From positions 1 through 64,000 of the forward strand of contig NZ_JAOYTH010000011.1 in the NCBI RefSeq assembly GCF_025847205.1: DNA of 64,000 nucleotides, given 5' to 3'. The notes below the pieces were generated by a model. It searched no databases. It saw only the letters and a list, made by a program, of their open reading frames with translations, and was not told where the DNA came from. The translations under genes and the position numbers were made by a program. This DNA is from Pararhizobium sp. YC-54. GTDB taxonomy: Bacteria; Pseudomonadota; Alphaproteobacteria; Rhizobiales; Rhizobiaceae. Every line of letters starts with the position of its first letter. Position 1 is the stretch's first letter. Below, piece after piece: positions 13,711-20,099 of this stretch.

Positions 13711-14028
13711 TCAGGCGGCTCTTGGCGTGATGCGATCAAGCTCGCCGCCCAGTTCCCGCCGCGTCTCCATGAGGTCATGGTCCGTCTGCAGCCGAAGAAA
13801 GAACCCCTCGGAAAGTCCAAAATAGCGGGCAAGCCGCAAGTCGGTATCTGCCGTCACGATCCTCTTTCCCAGAACGATTTCATTGATCCGGCGCGGCGGC
13901 ACATGAATGGCGCGGGCAAGGCCATTCTGGCTCAAAGCCATCGGCAGCAGAAAATCGTGAAGGAGGATTTCGCCGGGATGCGGATTGGGCAGCAGATCAC
14001 TGTTAATGATAGTCTGTGATTTCGACAT
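13711..14028 (-). CDS. higA: HigA-family antitoxin (XRE HTH)
   Basis: The 105-residue HTH protein contains PHPGEILLHDFLLPMALSQNGLARAIHVPPRRINEIV, written here as the HigA signature region at about residues 16-50. It begins at ATG 14028 with GAGG upstream. The gene overlaps the end of the toxin gene by 26 bp, toxin first, as in higBA operons. It should neutralise HigB and repress the operon through the palindrome at 14291-14311. Confidence 0.88.
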   Translation of the reverse strand: MSKSQTIINSDLLPNPHPGEILLHDFLLPMALSQNGLARAIHVPPRRINEIVLGKRIVTADTDLRLARYFGLSEGFFLRLQTDHDLMETRRELGGELDRITPRAA

Positions 14029-14284
14029 CGTTTGCCTCACCTTCCTGCCATGTAAAACAGATGCGCCACTGATCATTGATCCGGATTGAGTGCAGCCCCG
14101 AGCGGTTGCCCTTCAGCATTTCGAGCCGATTGCCCGGTGGAATGCGCAGGTCGTTCAGGCTAGCGGCGGCATTGATCAATCGTAGCTTTCTCAGCGCAAT
14201 CGCTTGGATTTCGCCGGGCAATCTGCGACTGCGCCGACCCGTCCAGATACTTTCAGTTTCACGGTCGGCAAAACTCTTGATCAT
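14003..14284 (-). CDS. higB: HigB-family toxin (RelE superfamily mRNA interferase)
   Basis: The 93-residue protein starts MIKSFADRETESIWTG. It has LRKLRLINAA, RIPPGNRLEMLKGNR and INDQWRICFTW, all typical of HigB toxins that cut mRNA on the ribosome. It is the first gene of the operon and overlaps higA by 26 bp. A perfect palindrome stands 6 bp upstream of the start. Confidence 0.9.
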   Translation of the reverse strand: MIKSFADRETESIWTGRRSRRLPGEIQAIALRKLRLINAAASLNDLRIPPGNRLEMLKGNRSGLHSIRINDQWRICFTWQEGEANDVEITDYH

Positions 14285-14325: not shown

Positions 14326-15333
14326 TCAGGCGGCGAAAGCGCCGGTCACCCTGACATCGCCGACATGGATGCCGTTCCAGTTTTTCATCGCGTGGTTGGC
14401 CTGTGCCATCAGGTTTTGCTGCAAGTCCGGCTCACTGGAGAAGAAACGGGCAAGCGTCGCGGCGATCATGGCTTCGGCGGCGCGGGTGGTGCCGTCCTCG
14501 CATTTGAGCGCAATGGCGATGCCCTTTTCCGGGATGGCGGCGCAGAACACGCCTTCGGCACCGGTCTTGGCAAAGATGCGGCCGGGTGCCGTCTGCATCA
14601 GCCTTGTGCAGGCGCGCTTGCTGCCGGCGACATAGAAGGGTTCGGCCATGCAGGCTTCGACCAGGCGTTTCGATGCCTTGGCGCGCTGCGGTTCCAGCCC
14701 GTTGCCGGTCGCCATCTTGGCAAAGCCGTGGGCAAGGCCCTTCAGCGGCACCGCATAGGTCGGGATCGAGCAGCCATCGGTGCCGCAATTGTCGTGGGCA
14801 AGCACAGCCCCCGTCAAATTTTCCATGACGCCGCGGATTTCGCGCTGCAAGGGATGATCGTAGCCGACGTAGCCTGCGGGCTCCTCGCCGCTGTGGCAGC
14901 AGGCGCAGATGAAGCCGGCATGTTTGCCGGAGCAATTGTTGTGCAGCGCCGAGGGATGCTCCAGCACGCGGGCCTGATGGATAATCGTGTCCTGATTGAT
15001 CGACCAGTGGGCGCCGCATTCGAGCGCCGAGACATCCCTGCCCGCTGCCGCCAGCATTTCGGCGGCAAGCGCCACATGTTCCGGCTCGCCATTGTGCGAG
15101 GAGCAGGCGAGCGCCAGCGCCCGCTTGTCGAACCCGTAGGCATCGGCAGCACCGGTTTCCATCAGCGGCAGCGCCTGCATGGCCTTGCAGGCCGAGCGCG
15201 GAAAGACGCCAACATCGGTATCGCCGAGCGAAAACACGGTTTTCCCGTCGCCATCGACGGCGATCACCATGCCGCGATGGCGGCTTTCGACCAGATTGCC
15301 GCGGGTGACTTCAACAAGAACCGGGTTCGACAT
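14326..15333 (-). CDS. L-asparaginase, Rhizobium etli ReAV type (Asparaginase_II family)
   Basis: The 335-residue enzyme hydrolyses L-asparagine to aspartate and ammonia. The residues known from ReAV are all present at a shift of one: S47 and K50 (PRSACK), S79 (SSHNGE), C134 and K137 (NNCSGKHAG, metal and catalytic site), D186 and C188 (GTDGCS). It is unrelated to the E. coli AnsA/AnsB fold. In rhizobia such enzymes allow growth on asparagine. It is a single gene between higBA and the DUF3750 gene. Confidence 0.9.
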   Translation of the reverse strand: MSNPVLVEVTRGNLVESRHRGMVIAVDGDGKTVFSLGDTDVGVFPRSACKAMQALPLMETGAADAYGFDKRALALACSSHNGEPEHVALAAEMLAAAGRDVSALECGAHWSINQDTIIHQARVLEHPSALHNNCSGKHAGFICACCHSGEEPAGYVGYDHPLQREIRGVMENLTGAVLAHDNCGTDGCSIPTYAVPLKGLAHGFAKMATGNGLEPQRAKASKRLVEACMAEPFYVAGSKRACTRLMQTAPGRIFAKTGAEGVFCAAIPEKGIAIALKCEDGTTRAAEAMIAATLARFFSSEPDLQQNLMAQANHAMKNWNGIHVGDVRVTGAFAA

Positions 15334-15408: not shown

Positions 15409-16146
15409 ATGAAATTTGTTCGAAGGCTGTTTCTTGCCATTCTGTTCGTCTACCTGCTGCCGGCGCTCGCGTCTGCCGGTTTATGGTACATCAAGGAAAG
15501 GCCGGGAAACTGGCGCGAGGCGGACTGGACGTCCGCCCATATCCTGCCCAAGCCCAAGGACGATCAGGATGCGGCGATTTATATCTTTTCAGCCACGACC
15601 GGCGGCATGAAGGGGGCGGTCGCCAGCCATTCCTGGATCGTCACCAAGGAACGGGGCGGCACGGCCTATAATCGCTACGACAAGGTCGGCTGGGGTTCAC
15701 CCATCCGCCGCAACGGCTATCCGGCCGACGCGCGCTGGTATTCGAACAGGCCGCAGCTCGTGGTGAGCGTCAAGGGCGAGGACGCCACGCGCCTGATTTC
15801 CAAGGTCGAACAGGCGATCCAGTCCTATCCCTACACGAGCCCCGGCGCCTACCGGATCTGGCCCGGGCCAAACTCCAACACCTTCGTCGCCCATGTGCTG
15901 CGCTCCGTGCCCGAACTGGGCGCAGTTCTGCCGCCGGATGCGGTCGGACGCGATTACCTGCCGGAGGGCCGGCTGTTTTCGGTCGACGCCGACGGGCTGG
16001 ACCTGCATGCCACGCTCTACGGTCTGCTGGGCATTTCGGCAGGTGTGCGCAGCGGTCTGGAGGTGCATTTCATGGGGCTGGTGGCCGGTTTTGACGTGAT
16101 GCGCCCGGCGGTGAAGATACCGGCTCTGGGGCGGTTCGGGGTGTAA
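15409..16146 (+). CDS. DUF3750 domain protein, membrane-anchored
   Basis: The 245-residue protein starts MKFVRRLFLAILFVYLLPALASAG, a signal anchor or signal peptide. The body contains SHSWIVTKE, GWGSPIRRNGYPADARWYSNRP and WPGPNSNTFVAHVLR, the DUF3750 pattern. The conserved H, W and N residues hint at an enzymatic fold, but no function is established. The ATG at 15409 is the first methionine followed by a proper signal sequence. Confidence 0.82.
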   Translation: MKFVRRLFLAILFVYLLPALASAGLWYIKERPGNWREADWTSAHILPKPKDDQDAAIYIFSATTGGMKGAVASHSWIVTKERGGTAYNRYDKVGWGSPIRRNGYPADARWYSNRPQLVVSVKGEDATRLISKVEQAIQSYPYTSPGAYRIWPGPNSNTFVAHVLRSVPELGAVLPPDAVGRDYLPEGRLFSVDADGLDLHATLYGLLGISAGVRSGLEVHFMGLVAGFDVMRPAVKIPALGRFGV

Positions 16147-16219
16147 CGCCGGGGCGCTTTCGGATGCGGAGGGAAAAAACTATGTTAGGATCAGGCTTGG
16201 AATTCGCGTGGAGACAAAG

Positions 16220-16498
16220 ATGTCGCAACCGCTCAAAACACCTCCGGTAGAGCTCCCGGAAAGTTTGGAAGTACAAATCGCATCGTTGGCCGAGAAGACG
16301 GGACGATCCCGCTCATTGATCGTCAACGACGCCATCGACACCTATGTCAAAGATCAGCTTCGCTGGCTGACCGAGATGGACTCCGCCATCGCAGATGCAA
16401 AGGAGGGCCAGTCCTATGAGGGCTCGGAAGTGCTGGAATGGTTGGGAAGCTGGGATAGCGAGACGGAGAAGGCCAGACCCAAGCCCTCAAAGGCTTAA
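16220..16498 (+). CDS. Ribbon-helix-helix antitoxin (ParD/CopG-like)
   Basis: The 92-residue protein has the RHH pattern VELPESLEVQIASLAEKTGRS (shown for residues 10-30), then SLIVNDAIDTYV. An acidic C-terminal tail should wrap the toxin. GGAG six bases before ATG 16220 sets the start. The ParE-like toxin follows 8 bp downstream. It most likely represses its own operon. Confidence 0.85.
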   Translation: MSQPLKTPPVELPESLEVQIASLAEKTGRSRSLIVNDAIDTYVKDQLRWLTEMDSAIADAKEGQSYEGSEVLEWLGSWDSETEKARPKPSKA

Positions 16499-16506
16499 AC
16501 CTGCCG

Positions 16507-16818
16507 ATGCGGATCCGCTTTACGTCTCAGGCCATGCGGGATCTCGATGATCTCAAAGAATGGCTCCGCTTCAAAAATCCCGCCGGTTTCAGATCGGTCG
16601 CAAGCCAGATATCCAAAACAATCCGGCCTCTTGCCACCCATCACGCTATGGGACGCAAAACGTTGCGGGAGGATGTCCGCGATCTTGTCGAACCTCGCTA
16701 TGGCTTCGTCATTCCCTATACAGTCCTCGACGATACAATATTTATTTTGCGCATTTACAGCGCGAAACGGTATCCGCTAGCGCCCGCCGACCTGCCTGAT
16801 GTCAGCGATCCAAAATAG
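16507..16818 (+). CDS. ParE/RelE-family toxin
   Basis: The 103-residue protein has the ParE/RelE superfamily pattern: MRIRFTSQAMRDLDDLKEWL, MGRKTLREDVRDLVEPRYGFVIPY (middle part) and FILRIYSAKRYPL. It is paired with the RHH antitoxin just upstream. ParE toxins poison gyrase and RelE toxins cut mRNA; sequence alone does not decide between them. Confidence 0.85.
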   Translation: MRIRFTSQAMRDLDDLKEWLRFKNPAGFRSVASQISKTIRPLATHHAMGRKTLREDVRDLVEPRYGFVIPYTVLDDTIFILRIYSAKRYPLAPADLPDVSDPK

Positions 16819-16870
16819 TTTTACGGTTCCGATGCGGATTCAATGTCCAGACAGACTAAAAGGGTCCAGA

Positions 16871-16900
16871 CAAACAAAAAGGGCCGCACGCGGCGGCCCT
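16871..16900 (-). terminator. Rho-independent terminator on the minus strand
   Basis: In minus-strand RNA an 8-bp perfect stem (AGGGCCGC/GCGGCCCT) with a 5-base loop is followed by TTTTTGTTTG. It closes the structured region 16901-17100. It may also catch the convergent parDE transcript poorly, since the plus strand has no T-run here. Confidence 0.8.
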
Positions 16901-16965
16901 CCATGAGTTTTGGCCAGGTAACAGGCCCGGACCGCATCCACGATGCGATCCGCAGGAAGGCTGGT

Positions 16966-17040
16966 TCAGATCGAGGGCTGCCTCGTTCCTACCATCACAA
17001 CTCCCATGCCCGTTACGAGGTTCGAAATCTCATTAGACAC
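16966..17040 (-). CDS. Candidate 24-residue small ORF inside the structured RNA
   Basis: A GTG start at 17040 is preceded by AAGGAAGGTGG and followed by 24 codons to TGA, beginning MSNEISNLVTGMGVV and ending RQPSI. The ribosome-binding site lies in the 3' arm of stem H1, so translation would require that stem to open. There is no run of one regulatory amino acid of the kind found in classical attenuator peptides. It could be a real microprotein or a control ORF; comparative data are needed to tell. Confidence 0.4.
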   Translation of the reverse strand: MSNEISNLVTGMGVVMVGTRQPSI

Positions 17041-17124
17041 TGGACCACCTTCCTTTCGTTCAATTGAAGATGACCTGAAGGTAGTCCGATTCTCGCCGAT
17101 TACAAGGGCAGCACATCTTAGACT

Positions 17125-18123
17125 TTAGAACGTCAGGACGATCTTGCCGATGTGATCGCCTGCCTCCATCAGCCGGTGCGCCTCGGCGACCTCAGAAAAC
17201 GGCACGACCGCGTGCATCACCGGCGCCACGTCGCCGTCCTCCAGCAGCGGCCAGACATTGTCCTCCAGGTCGTCGCGGATCGATTCCTTTTCGACCGCCG
17301 TGCGCGGCCGCATGGCCGAGCCCATGATGTGCAGCCGCTTGCCGAGAATGGCCGATATATTGGCGTTTTCGACCGTGGCGCCACCAAGAAAGGCGATGAT
17401 CGACAGGCGGCCATCCTTGGCGAGTGAGCCGATATTGCGGTCGAAATAGGGGCCCCCGACCATGTCGAGGATGACATCGACGCCGCGTCCCCCGGTTTCC
17501 TCGAGGATGACCGATTTGAAATCCTCCTCCCGGTAGTTGATCGCCCGCTTGGCGCCGAGCGCAACACAGGCGTCGCATTTATCCTTGGATCCGGCGGTGA
17601 CGAAAACCTCGGCGCCGAAGGCCCGGGCGAGCTGGATGGCGGTGGTGCCGATGCCGCTGGAGCCGCCATGGATGAGGATCTTTTCGCCTTCGACCAGGTC
17701 GGCCATCTGGAAGACATTGGCCCAGACGGTGAAGAAGGTTTCCGGAAGTGCTGCCGCCCGTGCCGCGTCATAGCCTTTCGGCCAAGGCATCGCCTGCGTC
17801 GCCGGCAGCGCGCAGAATTCGGCGTAGCCGCCGCCATTGGCAAGACCGCAGACCTTGTCGCCGACGATGAACCCCTCGGCGCCCTCGCCCATGGCCACCA
17901 CCTCGCCGGCCACCTCCAGCCCAAGGACCGGGCTTGCGCCGGGCGGCGGCGGATACATGCCGAGCCGCTGCAAAACATCGGGACGGTTGACGCCTGCCGC
18001 TTCGACACGGATCAGGACGTCGCCGGGCTTGATATCCGGCAGCGGCCCGCGGGCCAGAACCATCTTTTCCGGGCCGCCGGGGGACGGAAGATCGACATAG
18101 GTCATTTCGCTCGGCAGGGTCAC
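17125..18123 (-). CDS. NAD(P)H-quinone oxidoreductase (zinc-free MDR family)
   Basis: The 332-residue protein starts at GTG 18123, which has AAGGAG upstream; ATG 18105 is an alternative. It shows the MDR/quinone-reductase signatures [32 protein letters not shown] (about residues 45-75, excerpted) and the nucleotide-binding [14 protein letters not shown]. The C-terminal part has [11 protein letters not shown]. It lacks the zinc ligands of alcohol dehydrogenases. It probably reduces quinones with NADPH in the cytoplasm. The candidate RNA lies just downstream on the same strand. Confidence 0.88.
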
Positions 18124-18290
18124 GGTCTTCTCCTTGATCGGTGTTGACAAGGTATCTAACGCGCCAGGTGAAAACGGCAAAGCGATGTTTGCGCCACCGC
18201 CGATGGACGCTTTGGATCACGCGGAAACCGGCTGGATCCCATGACGGGTTTCAGCCAGTTTTCGCTTGGAATTGCCGGTGAAATACCGGT

Positions 18291-20099
18291 TCAGATCCCG
18301 CCGGTGCCAAACGTCTCGAAGACCAGCCCGTCATCGCTGTCCTTGGCCAACTTCTTGATCTCGGCGATGCGGGCGCTGACCGCCTGGGCGTCGGAAAAGA
18401 CAAAGCCTTCCGGCAGGATAAGAACGGCGATCGAGCAGCGCATCAGCGGAAAGATGGTGGTCTCGCCGCTGCGGCCATGGCCGGTCATGTAGCCGGCCTC
18501 ACGGTGTTCTGCCGAATAGAGTTGGTGCACGTCATTGCGGAATTCCGACAGAACACGGGAGAGAACGGCGCCCACATCTTCGCGCGTCCAGCCGCTGACG
18601 CCGATGAAGAAATCATCGCCGCCGACATGACCCAGGAACTTCTCCTCGCCGATGAAATACCGGCGTATCAAGGCGGCAAACAGCGAGATCGCCAGATCGC
18701 CCTTCTGGAAGCCATAGTGATCGTTGAAGGGCTTGAAACTGTCGAAATCGCAATAGCAGAAATAGCGCGCCTCGTCGGCATCGAGCACTGCACCCTGCAC
18801 ATAGTCGCGAATGGCGCGGTTTCCCGGCAGGCCCGTCAGCGGGTTCTGCTCCTGCGCTGTCTTCAGCTGCTTTTCGCCGATGATCTTCAGGAGCGACGAT
18901 GCCGAAAGGATGCCGGCATAACGCATGTTTTCCGTCAGGATCACGCAGTCGCTGCCGTCCATGCCGGCAAAAATCTTCAGCATCTCGTCGGCCGGCGTCT
19001 CCAGATCGGCGATCGGCGTCGGGCTGACAAAATGCGAGATGTGGCGCTGGTACATATGGTTCTTGAGCAGATCGCGGCCGAAGGGATGATAGATCATCTC
19101 CTTGACGTGATATTCATGCAGCACGCCGCGCGGCTCGCCATTGGCGTTGAGGACGGGAAAGAAACTGCGCTGCGGCGAGCGGCGGAACAGCTCGAACACC
19201 GAATCCAGATCATCGTTTTCGCGCAGCGCAGGCACCTGTTCGATCTGTTTGCGGATGAGAATGCTGTCGAGCGAGGTCGACTGGCGGCGGGCGCTGGACG
19301 ATTGCTCCAGATGCGGATAGGCCGGCTGCAGATCGGCGAAATGCACGGTCGGGCGGGCGACGAAGTAACCCTGGACAAGATCGCAGCCGAGATCGCGGCA
19401 GGTGGCAAATTCGGCTTCGGTCTCCACCCCTTCGGCAATCACCCGCGTGCCGAGAACATGGGCGGTGTTGACCGTGTGGCGCACCATGTGGCGCTTGCGG
19501 GGGCTGGATTCGATACCGGAGATGAAATGGCGGTCGATCTTCAGATAGTCCACCGGCTGGTCGCAGAGCAGCTTCAACCCATTGAAACCGACGCCGAAAT
19601 CGTCGATCGCCAACTTGAAACCAGCAAGCCGCAGGCGTTTCACCAGGCCGGAGAAATCCGGCATCTTGCCGCTGTCGAAACGTTCCGACAGTTCGAAGCA
19701 GATCGACGACGGCGGGATGCCTGCGCGCTTCAGGTGATTGCCAAGCCGCTCGACGAGATCGCCTTCAAGCCCGATCAAGCGGCTGTCGAAATTGACGAAC
19801 AGGGTGCGCGCGGCAAAATCCGGCAGGCTGGCAAAGCCGGCAAACGCGCGGGTGTTGATCATGTGCTCCAGCGCCAAAAGCTGGCCCGCCTCCTCGGCCT
19901 TGTCGAGCAGCTCGATCGGCGATTTGAAGCCCAGCCGCTCGAAGCCCCGCATCAGCGTTTCGTAACCGAACACCGCACCCGTGGCGATCTCGGCGATCGG
20001 CTGGAAGGCGCTTTCGAGCGCAAGCTTGGCAAGCGTGACGATCTGATCATCGCCAAAACGGCGCAGCGACAGCATTTCGGCGGGGACGGCGGACATCAA
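18291..20099 (-). CDS. EAL-CBS pair-GGDEF cyclic-di-GMP protein
   Basis: The 602-residue protein has an N-terminal EAL domain (about 20-265), with GYETLMRG at the catalytic Glu, AIDDFGVGFNGL, LKIDRHFI and EGVET. A CBS-domain pair follows (about 280-435), then a C-terminal GGDEF domain with DFDSFKPFNDHYG and HVGGDDFF. The EAL motifs needed for phosphodiesterase activity look present. The GGDEF has GGDDF, which may or may not be active. CBS pairs usually bind adenine nucleotides, so energy-state control is plausible. No membrane segment is seen. Confidence 0.87.
   Translation of the reverse strand: MMSAVPAEMLSLRRFGDDQIVTLAKLALESAFQPIAEIATGAVFGYETLMRGFERLGFKSPIELLDKAEEAGQLLALEHMINTRAFAGFASLPDFAARTLFVNFDSRLIGLEGDLVERLGNHLKRAGIPPSSICFELSERFDSGKMPDFSGLVKRLRLAGFKLAIDDFGVGFNGLKLLCDQPVDYLKIDRHFISGIESSPRKRHMVRHTVNTAHVLGTRVIAEGVETEAEFATCRDLGCDLVQGYFVARPTVHFADLQPAYPHLEQSSSARRQSTSLDSILIRKQIEQVPALRENDDLDSVFELFRRSPQRSFFPVLNANGEPRGVLHEYHVKEMIYHPFGRDLLKNHMYQRHISHFVSPTPIADLETPADEMLKIFAGMDGSDCVILTENMRYAGILSASSLLKIIGEKQLKTAQEQNPLTGLPGNRAIRDYVQGAVLDADEARYFCYCDFDSFKPFNDHYGFQKGDLAISLFAALIRRYFIGEEKFLGHVGGDDFFIGVSGWTREDVGAVLSRVLSEFRNDVHQLYSAEHREAGYMTGHGRSGETTIFPLMRCSIAVLILPEGFVFSDAQAVSARIAEIKKLAKDSDDGLVFETFGTGGI

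Follow-up and report, generated by a model that had tools for sequence, protein, structure and literature searches.

A predicted Rhizobiaceae branch of the CC2171 RNA family pairs a 16S-tail-length Shine-Dalgarno sequence with a short, conserved open frame

Introduction

The CC2171 RNA of Caulobacter is listed by Rfam as an sRNA (RF01867), and Mesorhizobium huakuii MH_s33 has been assigned to the same family. In the portion of the literature naming the family that was accessible, no ORF on CC2171 is mentioned, and the partly covered literature on CC2171, RF01867, and SEP1 likewise yielded no link between this sRNA family and an ORF. SEP1 is a 23 amino acid protein of S. meliloti with a pI of 4.18, described as "conserved in Rhizobiaceae" (Hadjeras et al. 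2023, PMC10117765). It had the top translation efficiency among 54 Ribo-seq candidates and gave a Western blot signal together with one peptide spectrum that fell below the authors' threshold, and the accessible text of that report contains no link of SEP1 to RF01867 or to an RNA structure. For Caulobacter, the accessible parts of Schrader et al. (2014, PMC4117421) describe a genome in which 75.4% of genes have no Shine-Dalgarno (SD) sequence, report that two earlier-predicted ncRNAs are translated, and state that intergenic ncRNAs are not.

Three other systems are comparable in part, as far as the excerpts of their literature available to us describe them. The S. meliloti dual-function attenuator rnTrpL/peTrpL also has a short ORF on a small alphaproteobacterial RNA, but trpL is leaderless and lies within the 5'-UTR of trpE, whereas the RNA considered here has a very strong SD and is not directly followed by a gene. 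The sRNAs SmelA075 and SmelA099 and Caulobacter SisA-D share with it an anti-SD motif, which in our case is lineage-specific, lies beside the stop codon of a conserved ORF, and is found on an RNA that also carries an SD. Extended SD pairing is known from Staphylococcus aureus, where small ORFs are among the mapped sites (PMC13009471); there it is a general trait of the species, whereas the type described here occurs almost always at one place per genome.

The window analyzed is a 64,000-nucleotide stretch of Pararhizobium sp. YC-54. Its RNA has the same order of parts as CC2171, namely a CAAC-rich 5' end, an SD directed at the 16S tail, a GUGUC start, a closing helix that ends in AUGGA, and then a GC-rich terminator, and it differs in an extra A in the SD, in the inner letters of the closing helix P1, and in a CUUCC segment after the stop codon that is confined to one Rhizobiaceae clade. 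Our preferred reading, to which we assign a probability of about 0.5, is that the locus is an independent unit of ~190 nt with its own promoter and terminator that acts as a ribosome-gated RNA switch.

Results

Layout of the locus and its neighbors

A first-pass annotation of the window had proposed three stems (H1, H2, and H3), a GTG-started 24-codon ORF, and a terminator on the minus strand. All of these are found in the minus-strand letters, and with a promoter and a leader they give positions 17106-16871 the appearance of a complete small gene (Table 1).

Table 1. Elements of the minus-strand RNA locus, in window coordinates.
Element	Position	Strand	Basis or remark
-35 element (likely), CTTGTA	17101..17106	-	comparison with homologous loci
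-10 element (likely), TACCTT	17078..17083	-	TA..TT invariant in 40/40 aligned Rhizobiaceae; within H1 5' arm
H1 of the first-pass annotation	17087-17077 with 17052-17042, 11 pairs, one U.G	-	in sequence; rejected as primary-transcript helix
Extended SD, GAAAGGAAGGTGGTCC	17042..17057	-	complement of 16S rRNA 3' tail with one extra A and one G.U
24-codon ORF, VSNEISNLVTGMGVVMVGTRQPSI, GTG start, TGA stop	16966..17040	-	probable counterpart of S. meliloti SEP1
Closing helix P1	17037-17025 (codons 2-6) with 16910-16900, just before terminator	-	pairing and class-wide covariation
Candidate SD-masking helix S	AGGAAGG 17054-17048 with CCTTCCT 16960-16954	-	6-12 nt after stop; minimum free energy (MFE) fold
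Hairpin H2, CGAGG-CAGC-CCTCG	16985-16981/16976-16972	-	inside last ORF codons
Hairpin H3	16951-16942/16938-16929, one U.G	-	double changes at all 10 pairs
Small hairpin GGCC...GGCC	16912..16927	-	between H3 and P1
Intrinsic terminator	16871..16899; stem 16899-16881, U tract behind	-	sequence scan and alignment

The upstream neighbor on the same strand is qor (17125-18108), a zinc-type dehydrogenase/quinone oxidoreductase gene. Between the terminator and a plus-strand gene of the DUF3750 type, a name taken from an S. meliloti record, lies a parDE-like pair (16208-16818, plus strand) that points toward the RNA, with ParE recognized by a Pfam match (E 9.9e-12) and the antitoxin by a weak RHH match below the cut-off. 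The annotation was thus right that no gene lies directly past the terminator on the minus strand, where the next long ORF is at 14326-15333, and its comparison to a translation-controlled leader does not hold for want of a regulated gene in that position; a leader or attenuator of a downstream gene was rejected on the same ground. At Rfam cut-offs the window yields two tRNAs only. A plus-strand ORF of 74 codons at 16843-17067, without an NCBIfam match, was treated as spurious. Two overlapping minus-strand ORFs (93 and 121 aa) at 13711-14284 look by eye like a higBA-type toxin-antitoxin pair, which would be a second such module within about 3 kb of the parDE-like pair.

Because the loci hold limited flanks, the following counts of conserved neighbors are lower bounds: qor precedes the RNA on the same strand in 26 of 28 genus-set, 5 of 30 family, and 0 of 60 class loci, and in 46 of 120 named Rhizobiaceae loci among the matches listed, with two class loci having a qor-like gene in opposite orientation; the DUF3750 gene is downstream on the other strand in 22 of 28 genus-set loci and, among the matches listed, in 43 of 120 named loci; and the qor/DUF3750 arrangement surrounds the RNA in 0 of 60 class loci. 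The parDE pair adjoins the RNA in 6 of the 28 genus-set loci and is a recent insertion or loss. The RNA appears to travel as its own unit.

Homology to RF01867

A BLASTN search of 61 genomes matched 33, of which five were dropped since only the 3' part around the terminator aligned (L029, L030, and three without a locus), and additional short matches in G017, G023, and G036 were excluded as well. The real homologues are 28 loci (E<=7.1e-17), covering 26 of 26 genomes of the genus (its own included) and two other genera, and all 28 keep the SD, an RTG start, and exactly 24 codons. A permissive Rfam search placed the window RNA in RF01867 with E 9.5e-5 and 30 bits, and the whole-genome search gave the same 30 bits (E 4.0e-4), below the family cut-off of 75 bits. 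At E up to 0.01, RF01867 was found in 69 of 289 Alphaproteobacteria genomes, nine of them above the cut-off, and among 14 controls in Caulobacter vibrioides and in Deinobacterium chartae, the latter taken as a chance match.

All nine loci above the cut-off have the SD and an RTG-started short ORF 22-26 codons long, the SD being a perfect GAAAGGAGGTGATCCA in seven and carrying one change in L035 and two in L036. A reciprocal covariance model built from the 28 Rhizobiaceae sequences and run on 35 hand-picked loci recovered eight of these nine at the same place (E 2.7e-10 to 1.7e-6; the ninth at 0.021), and among 190 whole class genomes it matched 27 at E up to 0.01 (its own included, with a few short or marginal matches). 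Since the reciprocal matches fall at the same places, we take the window RNA to be a diverged homologue of the known family that lies below the Rfam cut-off, and hence, judging from these comparisons, a Rhizobiaceae branch of an alphaproteobacterial RNA family.

Searched as a pattern, the SD plus start codon is present in 80 of the 385 class and in 73 of the 121 family genomes, and its reversed form gave zero matches in the same two sets. It is found at a single place in 78 of the 80 and in all 73, with two places in G072 and G235. With a slightly longer SD pattern, 29 of 200 phylum genomes matched, all within the 51 Alphaproteobacteria and none among the 149 others. A looser pattern has the RNA locus as its sole match in the window's genome, where its reversed control also matches once. 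Directly past the terminator of L084, about 60-130 nt after the ORF stop, there are tandem repeats of ACGAAGTCTTTTTTTT.

Secondary structure

The minus-strand stretch folds better than its shuffles (z -3.54, 0/200), and so does the plus strand (z -3.83), so that folding as a whole is no guide to the strand. For the likely primary transcript, 17067-16875 with a guessed start, the MFE is -83.1 kcal/mol (z -4.32). Evidence on individual helices came from two alignments of hand-picked loci, A1 with 40 sequences and A2 with 28. For P1, H2, H3, and the terminator together, 95.6% of cells are paired in A1 compared with 92.2 in shuffles (0/500), with 12 pairs changed on both sides compared with 4.7, and slid controls reach 34-56%; for the whole structure in A2 the values are 93.0% compared with 89.5 (0/500). 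The annotation had looked to compensatory changes in H3 as support for an RNA structure, and they are present, with double changes at 10 of 10 pairs and 90.2% (A1) or 78.4% (A2) of cells paired. H2 is paired in 100% of cells in A1, and four of its five pairs show one-sided changes to G.U or U.G; the small GGCC...GGCC hairpin is 90.2% paired with double changes at two of four pairs (A2). RNAalifold run on A1 gave, apart from H2, other pairings, none of which has a double change.

P1 is paired in 97.5% of cells in the 40 Rhizobiaceae with zero double changes, and its covariation is seen at the level of the class. The terminator was found by rule in 257 of 278 loci, and 67 of 77 class loci entered the P1 tests. 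Across these 67, the cognate duplex averages -9.66 kcal/mol compared with -6.28 (sd 0.32) for permuted partners (0/10000 permutations); taken one locus at a time, only 17 of 67 have a cognate partner that falls within the top 5% of the non-cognate ranking. By eye, the arms at the same two places read CATTGTC/GACAATG, CATTGCC/GGCAATG, CATGAAT/ATTCATG, CGAGATC/GATCTCG, and AATGAG/CTCAT. In many single-sequence folds few P1 pairs are expected (median 1.08, n=257; class 4.77, n=68), and P1 is absent from the MFE fold of the likely window transcript. The comparison thus argues for P1 as a closing helix across the class, as in RF01867, and for H3. The ORF, SD, H3, P1, and terminator are more than chance, and H1 is not. 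The annotation was right in its broader picture, in which the minus strand encodes an RNA that has structure, contains a real ORF, and resembles dual-function RNAs.

The ORF is kept open and its peptide seems to drift

ORFs were surveyed at loci with 70 nt of sequence before the start and 300 nt after it, the 316 rows reducing to 278 distinct cores, which are related by descent so that counts are not independent events and which include a few genes that share the SD alone (e.g. ORFs of 54-57 codons in L069, L089, and L090). The window's core is kept under a duplicate locus, and the genus set counts 27 in the frame and promoter tests. In L069, L089, and L090, from other Alphaproteobacteria, the 16S-tail-length SD precedes the ORF at about position 1516 of the oriented locus, and the predicted products resemble small secreted proteins.

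An ORF of 18-35 codons is present in 270 of 278 loci (class subset 69 of 77). The corresponding counts for frames +1 and +2, 29 and 24 of 278 (class 14 and 19 of 77), overstate the case because P1 itself holds off-frame stops, and we therefore relied on codons 7-18, which lie outside P1 and H2. A stop falls within these codons in one of 278 loci compared with a mean of 89.6 (minimum 74) in dinucleotide shuffles, and in one of 77 class loci compared with 18.4 (minimum 10). Off-frame stops in the same codons number 186 of 278 in frame +1 and 38 of 278 in frame +2 (class 38 and 9 of 77), frame +2 being also stop-poor, with 0 of 27 in the genus loci; a control stretch mostly after the stop has 67, 79, and 91 stops in the three frames. 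The Rhizobiaceae pattern occurs in at least 120 stretches, and of 80 ORFs among the matches listed 79 have 23 or 24 codons, L148 ending at the locus edge.

The S. meliloti 4H41 and Ak57 homologues both encode MSNEISDLVMDMGEVKESRQPSA, with 23 aa and pI 4.18, and among the 118 Rhizobiaceae peptides listed this is the only one of 23 aa with a pI within 0.03 of 4.18; the window's own peptide has 24 aa. The shared length and pI, found in this peptide alone, together with the published conservation in Rhizobiaceae make the identification of the window ORF as a counterpart of SEP1 probable, on strong but indirect grounds. As regards a translated ORF on a dual-function sRNA, the open frame is conserved, and translation is published for the presumed S. 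meliloti counterpart only, as far as the accessible text of PMC10117765 goes. The annotation's "undescribed" RNA is therefore better viewed as a homologue of RF01867/CC2171 whose S. meliloti counterpart fits the published SEP1 in length and pI.

One explanation of these data is an ordinary small-protein gene, with the 23-24 aa peptide as the product, the strong SD giving high output, and the helices protecting the mRNA. It would account for the conserved start, frame, and length, for the translation and Western detection of SEP1 in the accessible report (PMC10117765), and for the recurring MS[NSH] and QPS ends, the C-terminal motif being in one frame in 190 of the 206 loci that have it. Set against this, pN/pS is about 1 in the middle codons: for codons 7-17 it is 1.07 (0.74-1.71, n=82), 0.75 (0.51-1.55, n=40), and 0.96 (0.64-1.49, n=16) in three peptide groups, intervals wide enough that weak peptide constraint is possible, and an earlier count of 96 sequences gave 1.01 for codons 7-18. 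Because the peptides were grouped by length, a lack of stops inside a group carries no independent weight; the stop test on codons 7-18 is unaffected. In each of the three groups variation peaks at the second codon position, the predicted pI ranges from 4.05 to 12.0, and the recurring letters fall in P1 (N-terminal) and H2 (C-terminal QPS). Eight loci read the nucleotides of the C-terminal motif in another frame, with the stop still right after. No peptide family was found in NCBIfam or Pfam, tests that are weak at 24 aa. We regard this explanation as unlikely; the data suggest that translation looks to be under selection and the peptide sequence not, and that being translated, rather than the protein, may be the job of the RNA. 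The eight frame-changed loci (L095, L104, L119, L121, L312, L313, L318, and L325), whose peptides end in RSSL or WSSL, represent a natural frame change of the peptide.

A post-stop anti-SD segment in one clade

In the MFE fold of the transcript the SD pairs with the CCTTCCT just past the stop (helix S). In 114 of 125 AAGG-type loci such SD-to-downstream pairing exceeds that of 95% of shuffles; it is weaker in AGG-type loci, where 12 of 45 family and 15 of 67 class loci exceed that level. Of 145 AAGG-type Rhizobiaceae loci, 141 have a CTTCC no more than 22 nt past the stop, in most cases at a distance of 7-8 nt; the corresponding counts are one of 53 AGG-type Rhizobiaceae and none of 77 AGG-type class loci (one AAGG row being counted under class in this survey). 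The extra A of the SD and CTTCC co-occur in one clade and may go back to a single ancestral event, which cannot count as repeated covariation. In the clade with the SD GGAAGG, masking of the SD by CUUCC is plausible. Helix S and P1 cannot nest, so they would be alternatives or form a pseudoknot. From the size of a ribosome footprint, a ribosome at the stop codon would cover CUUCC.

The same segment could instead serve a trans-acting antisense sRNA, in which CUUCC or another single-stranded stretch masks the SDs of other mRNAs while the ORF and its unusually strong SD stabilize or time the RNA. The invariance of CTTCC in all 40 aligned sequences and its fixed position in most AAGG-type loci would fit, and anti-SD motifs are a known device of alphaproteobacterial sRNAs in the accessible accounts of SmelA075/SmelA099 and SisA-D. 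Yet the motif is missing from the 22 nt past the stop in 52 of the 53 AGG-type Rhizobiaceae and all 77 AGG-type class loci, and the AGG-type loci that lack it still carry SD and ORF, which leads us to consider an antisense function rather improbable.

Strength of the Shine-Dalgarno sequence

Despite its bulged A and G.U, GAAAGGAAGGTGGTCC pairs at -25.5 kcal/mol with what we take to be the 16S 3' tail, the last part of a 34-nt query. The best of the 43 long ORFs in the window reaches -12.8 kcal/mol, even with the best of all starts within the first 60 codons taken for each, and the class consensus SD as we typed it reaches -30.4 kcal/mol. The query has at least 99% identity in 209 of 217 matching plasmid or chromid records, Ensifer, Rhizobium, and Neorhizobium included; in six genomes the tail had no match, their rRNA being probably absent or masked. 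By this calculation the SD is complementary to the whole 16S 3' tail, and the hallmark of the RNA family is an extremely strong start site, which the genomes having it nearly always carry once.

Such whole-tail complementarity, almost always confined to one place per genome, could also suit a decoy whose anti-16S segment holds 30S subunits and lowers initiation in general, the ORF freeing those that become trapped. This would require the RNA to be abundant, it gives no need for P1 or a fixed stop, and the AAGG clade has weakened its 16S match by the bulged A, so that we find a decoy quite improbable.

The 5' arm of H1 coincides with a promoter box

The annotation had assigned to H1 the burial of the SD, so that H1 would act as a switch. 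In the 40 aligned Rhizobiaceae the invariant letters of the H1 5' arm are TA..TT, and 214 of 278 distinct loci have a CTTG-N18-20-NANNNT pattern ahead of the SD, which shuffled sequences show in 5.1 loci on average and in 12 at most. This strict pattern occurs in 26 of 27 genus loci and 26 of 77 class loci (shuffled mean 1.2, max 4), and a looser one in 42 of 77 class loci (shuffled mean 8.3). A simple E. coli-type sigma-70 consensus scan of 16100-18400 found four terminator-like sites and no promoter, so the promoter call rests on comparison with relatives. H1 itself has 80.5% of cells paired compared with 80.3% in shuffles and one pair changed on both sides compared with 0.9 (40 sequences). 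Pairing is absent in 14 to 24 of 40 sequences at each of the four pairs that precede the -10 box, and in 2 to 7 of 40 at the three other varying pairs. Slid versions are 35-56% paired, an excess for H1 that would already follow from the invariant letters of promoter and SD. In S. meliloti, where the arm has the sequence TACGTT, and in other relatives the stem is broken, and for H1 the outcome is the one that the annotation had named as a refutation.

The 5' arm is thus most simply read as a promoter box, with transcription predicted to start at about 17073-17063, downstream of the arm, which would leave H1 absent from the transcript. The compensatory changes anticipated for H1 do not exceed shuffles, and the proposed switch fails with them; the idea of a sequestered ribosome site is plausible in the window's clade through another helix, that with the post-stop CCTTCCT. 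That H1, in a leader transcribed from upstream, nevertheless controls translation of the ORF is very hard to credit: H1 is present in the window, beats its slid versions, and would be included in qor read-through, but its covariation is not above shuffles, the promoter pattern explains its conserved letters, and relatives break it.

Discussion

We favor the ribosome-gated switch. With no ribosome bound, P1, which joins codons 2-6 to the segment before the terminator, would close the RNA, and in the window's clade the pairing of SD with CUUCC would close it additionally. The over-strong SD would let a 30S subunit open the structure, and every ribosome traversing the short ORF would finish with CUUCC covered just past the stop. 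Ribosome passage would hold the RNA open and thereby expose or hide its 3' half, and translation of the ORF would be what counts, with the peptide sequence largely free to drift. Sequence comparison shows the homology, the promoter-like pattern, the complementarity of the SD, the conservation of the open frame, and the covariation of P1 and H3; that the RNA is transcribed and translated in this organism, that it switches, in which direction, and on what target are points that we infer. A bolder version, which we put forward tentatively as a possibility, extends this to a class-wide family in which the ORF is kept as a translatable stretch and not for its peptide. The RNA would then be a ribosome sensor in which an SD matching the entire 16S tail and the passage of ribosomes along some 24 codons of almost arbitrary sequence determine the fold and hence the activity, and the post-stop anti-SD added in one Rhizobiaceae clade would make a self-sustaining on/off switch.

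The RNA family was known already, at a distance, and the ORF probably so as the published SEP1. What appears to be new is the probable link between RF01867, SEP1, and an SD of 16S-tail length, the likely reinterpretation of H1 as a promoter, and the difference between an open frame that is conserved and a peptide that seems to be under no constraint.

CC2171, an Rfam sRNA family for which we found no stated function, would through S. meliloti SEP1 be tied to a translated small ORF. This carries the caution that a small ORF detected by ribosome profiling is not necessarily the gene of a functional protein, and an ORF that is kept open without clear peptide conservation may offer a simple test of whether translation itself is the conserved function of a bacterial RNA.
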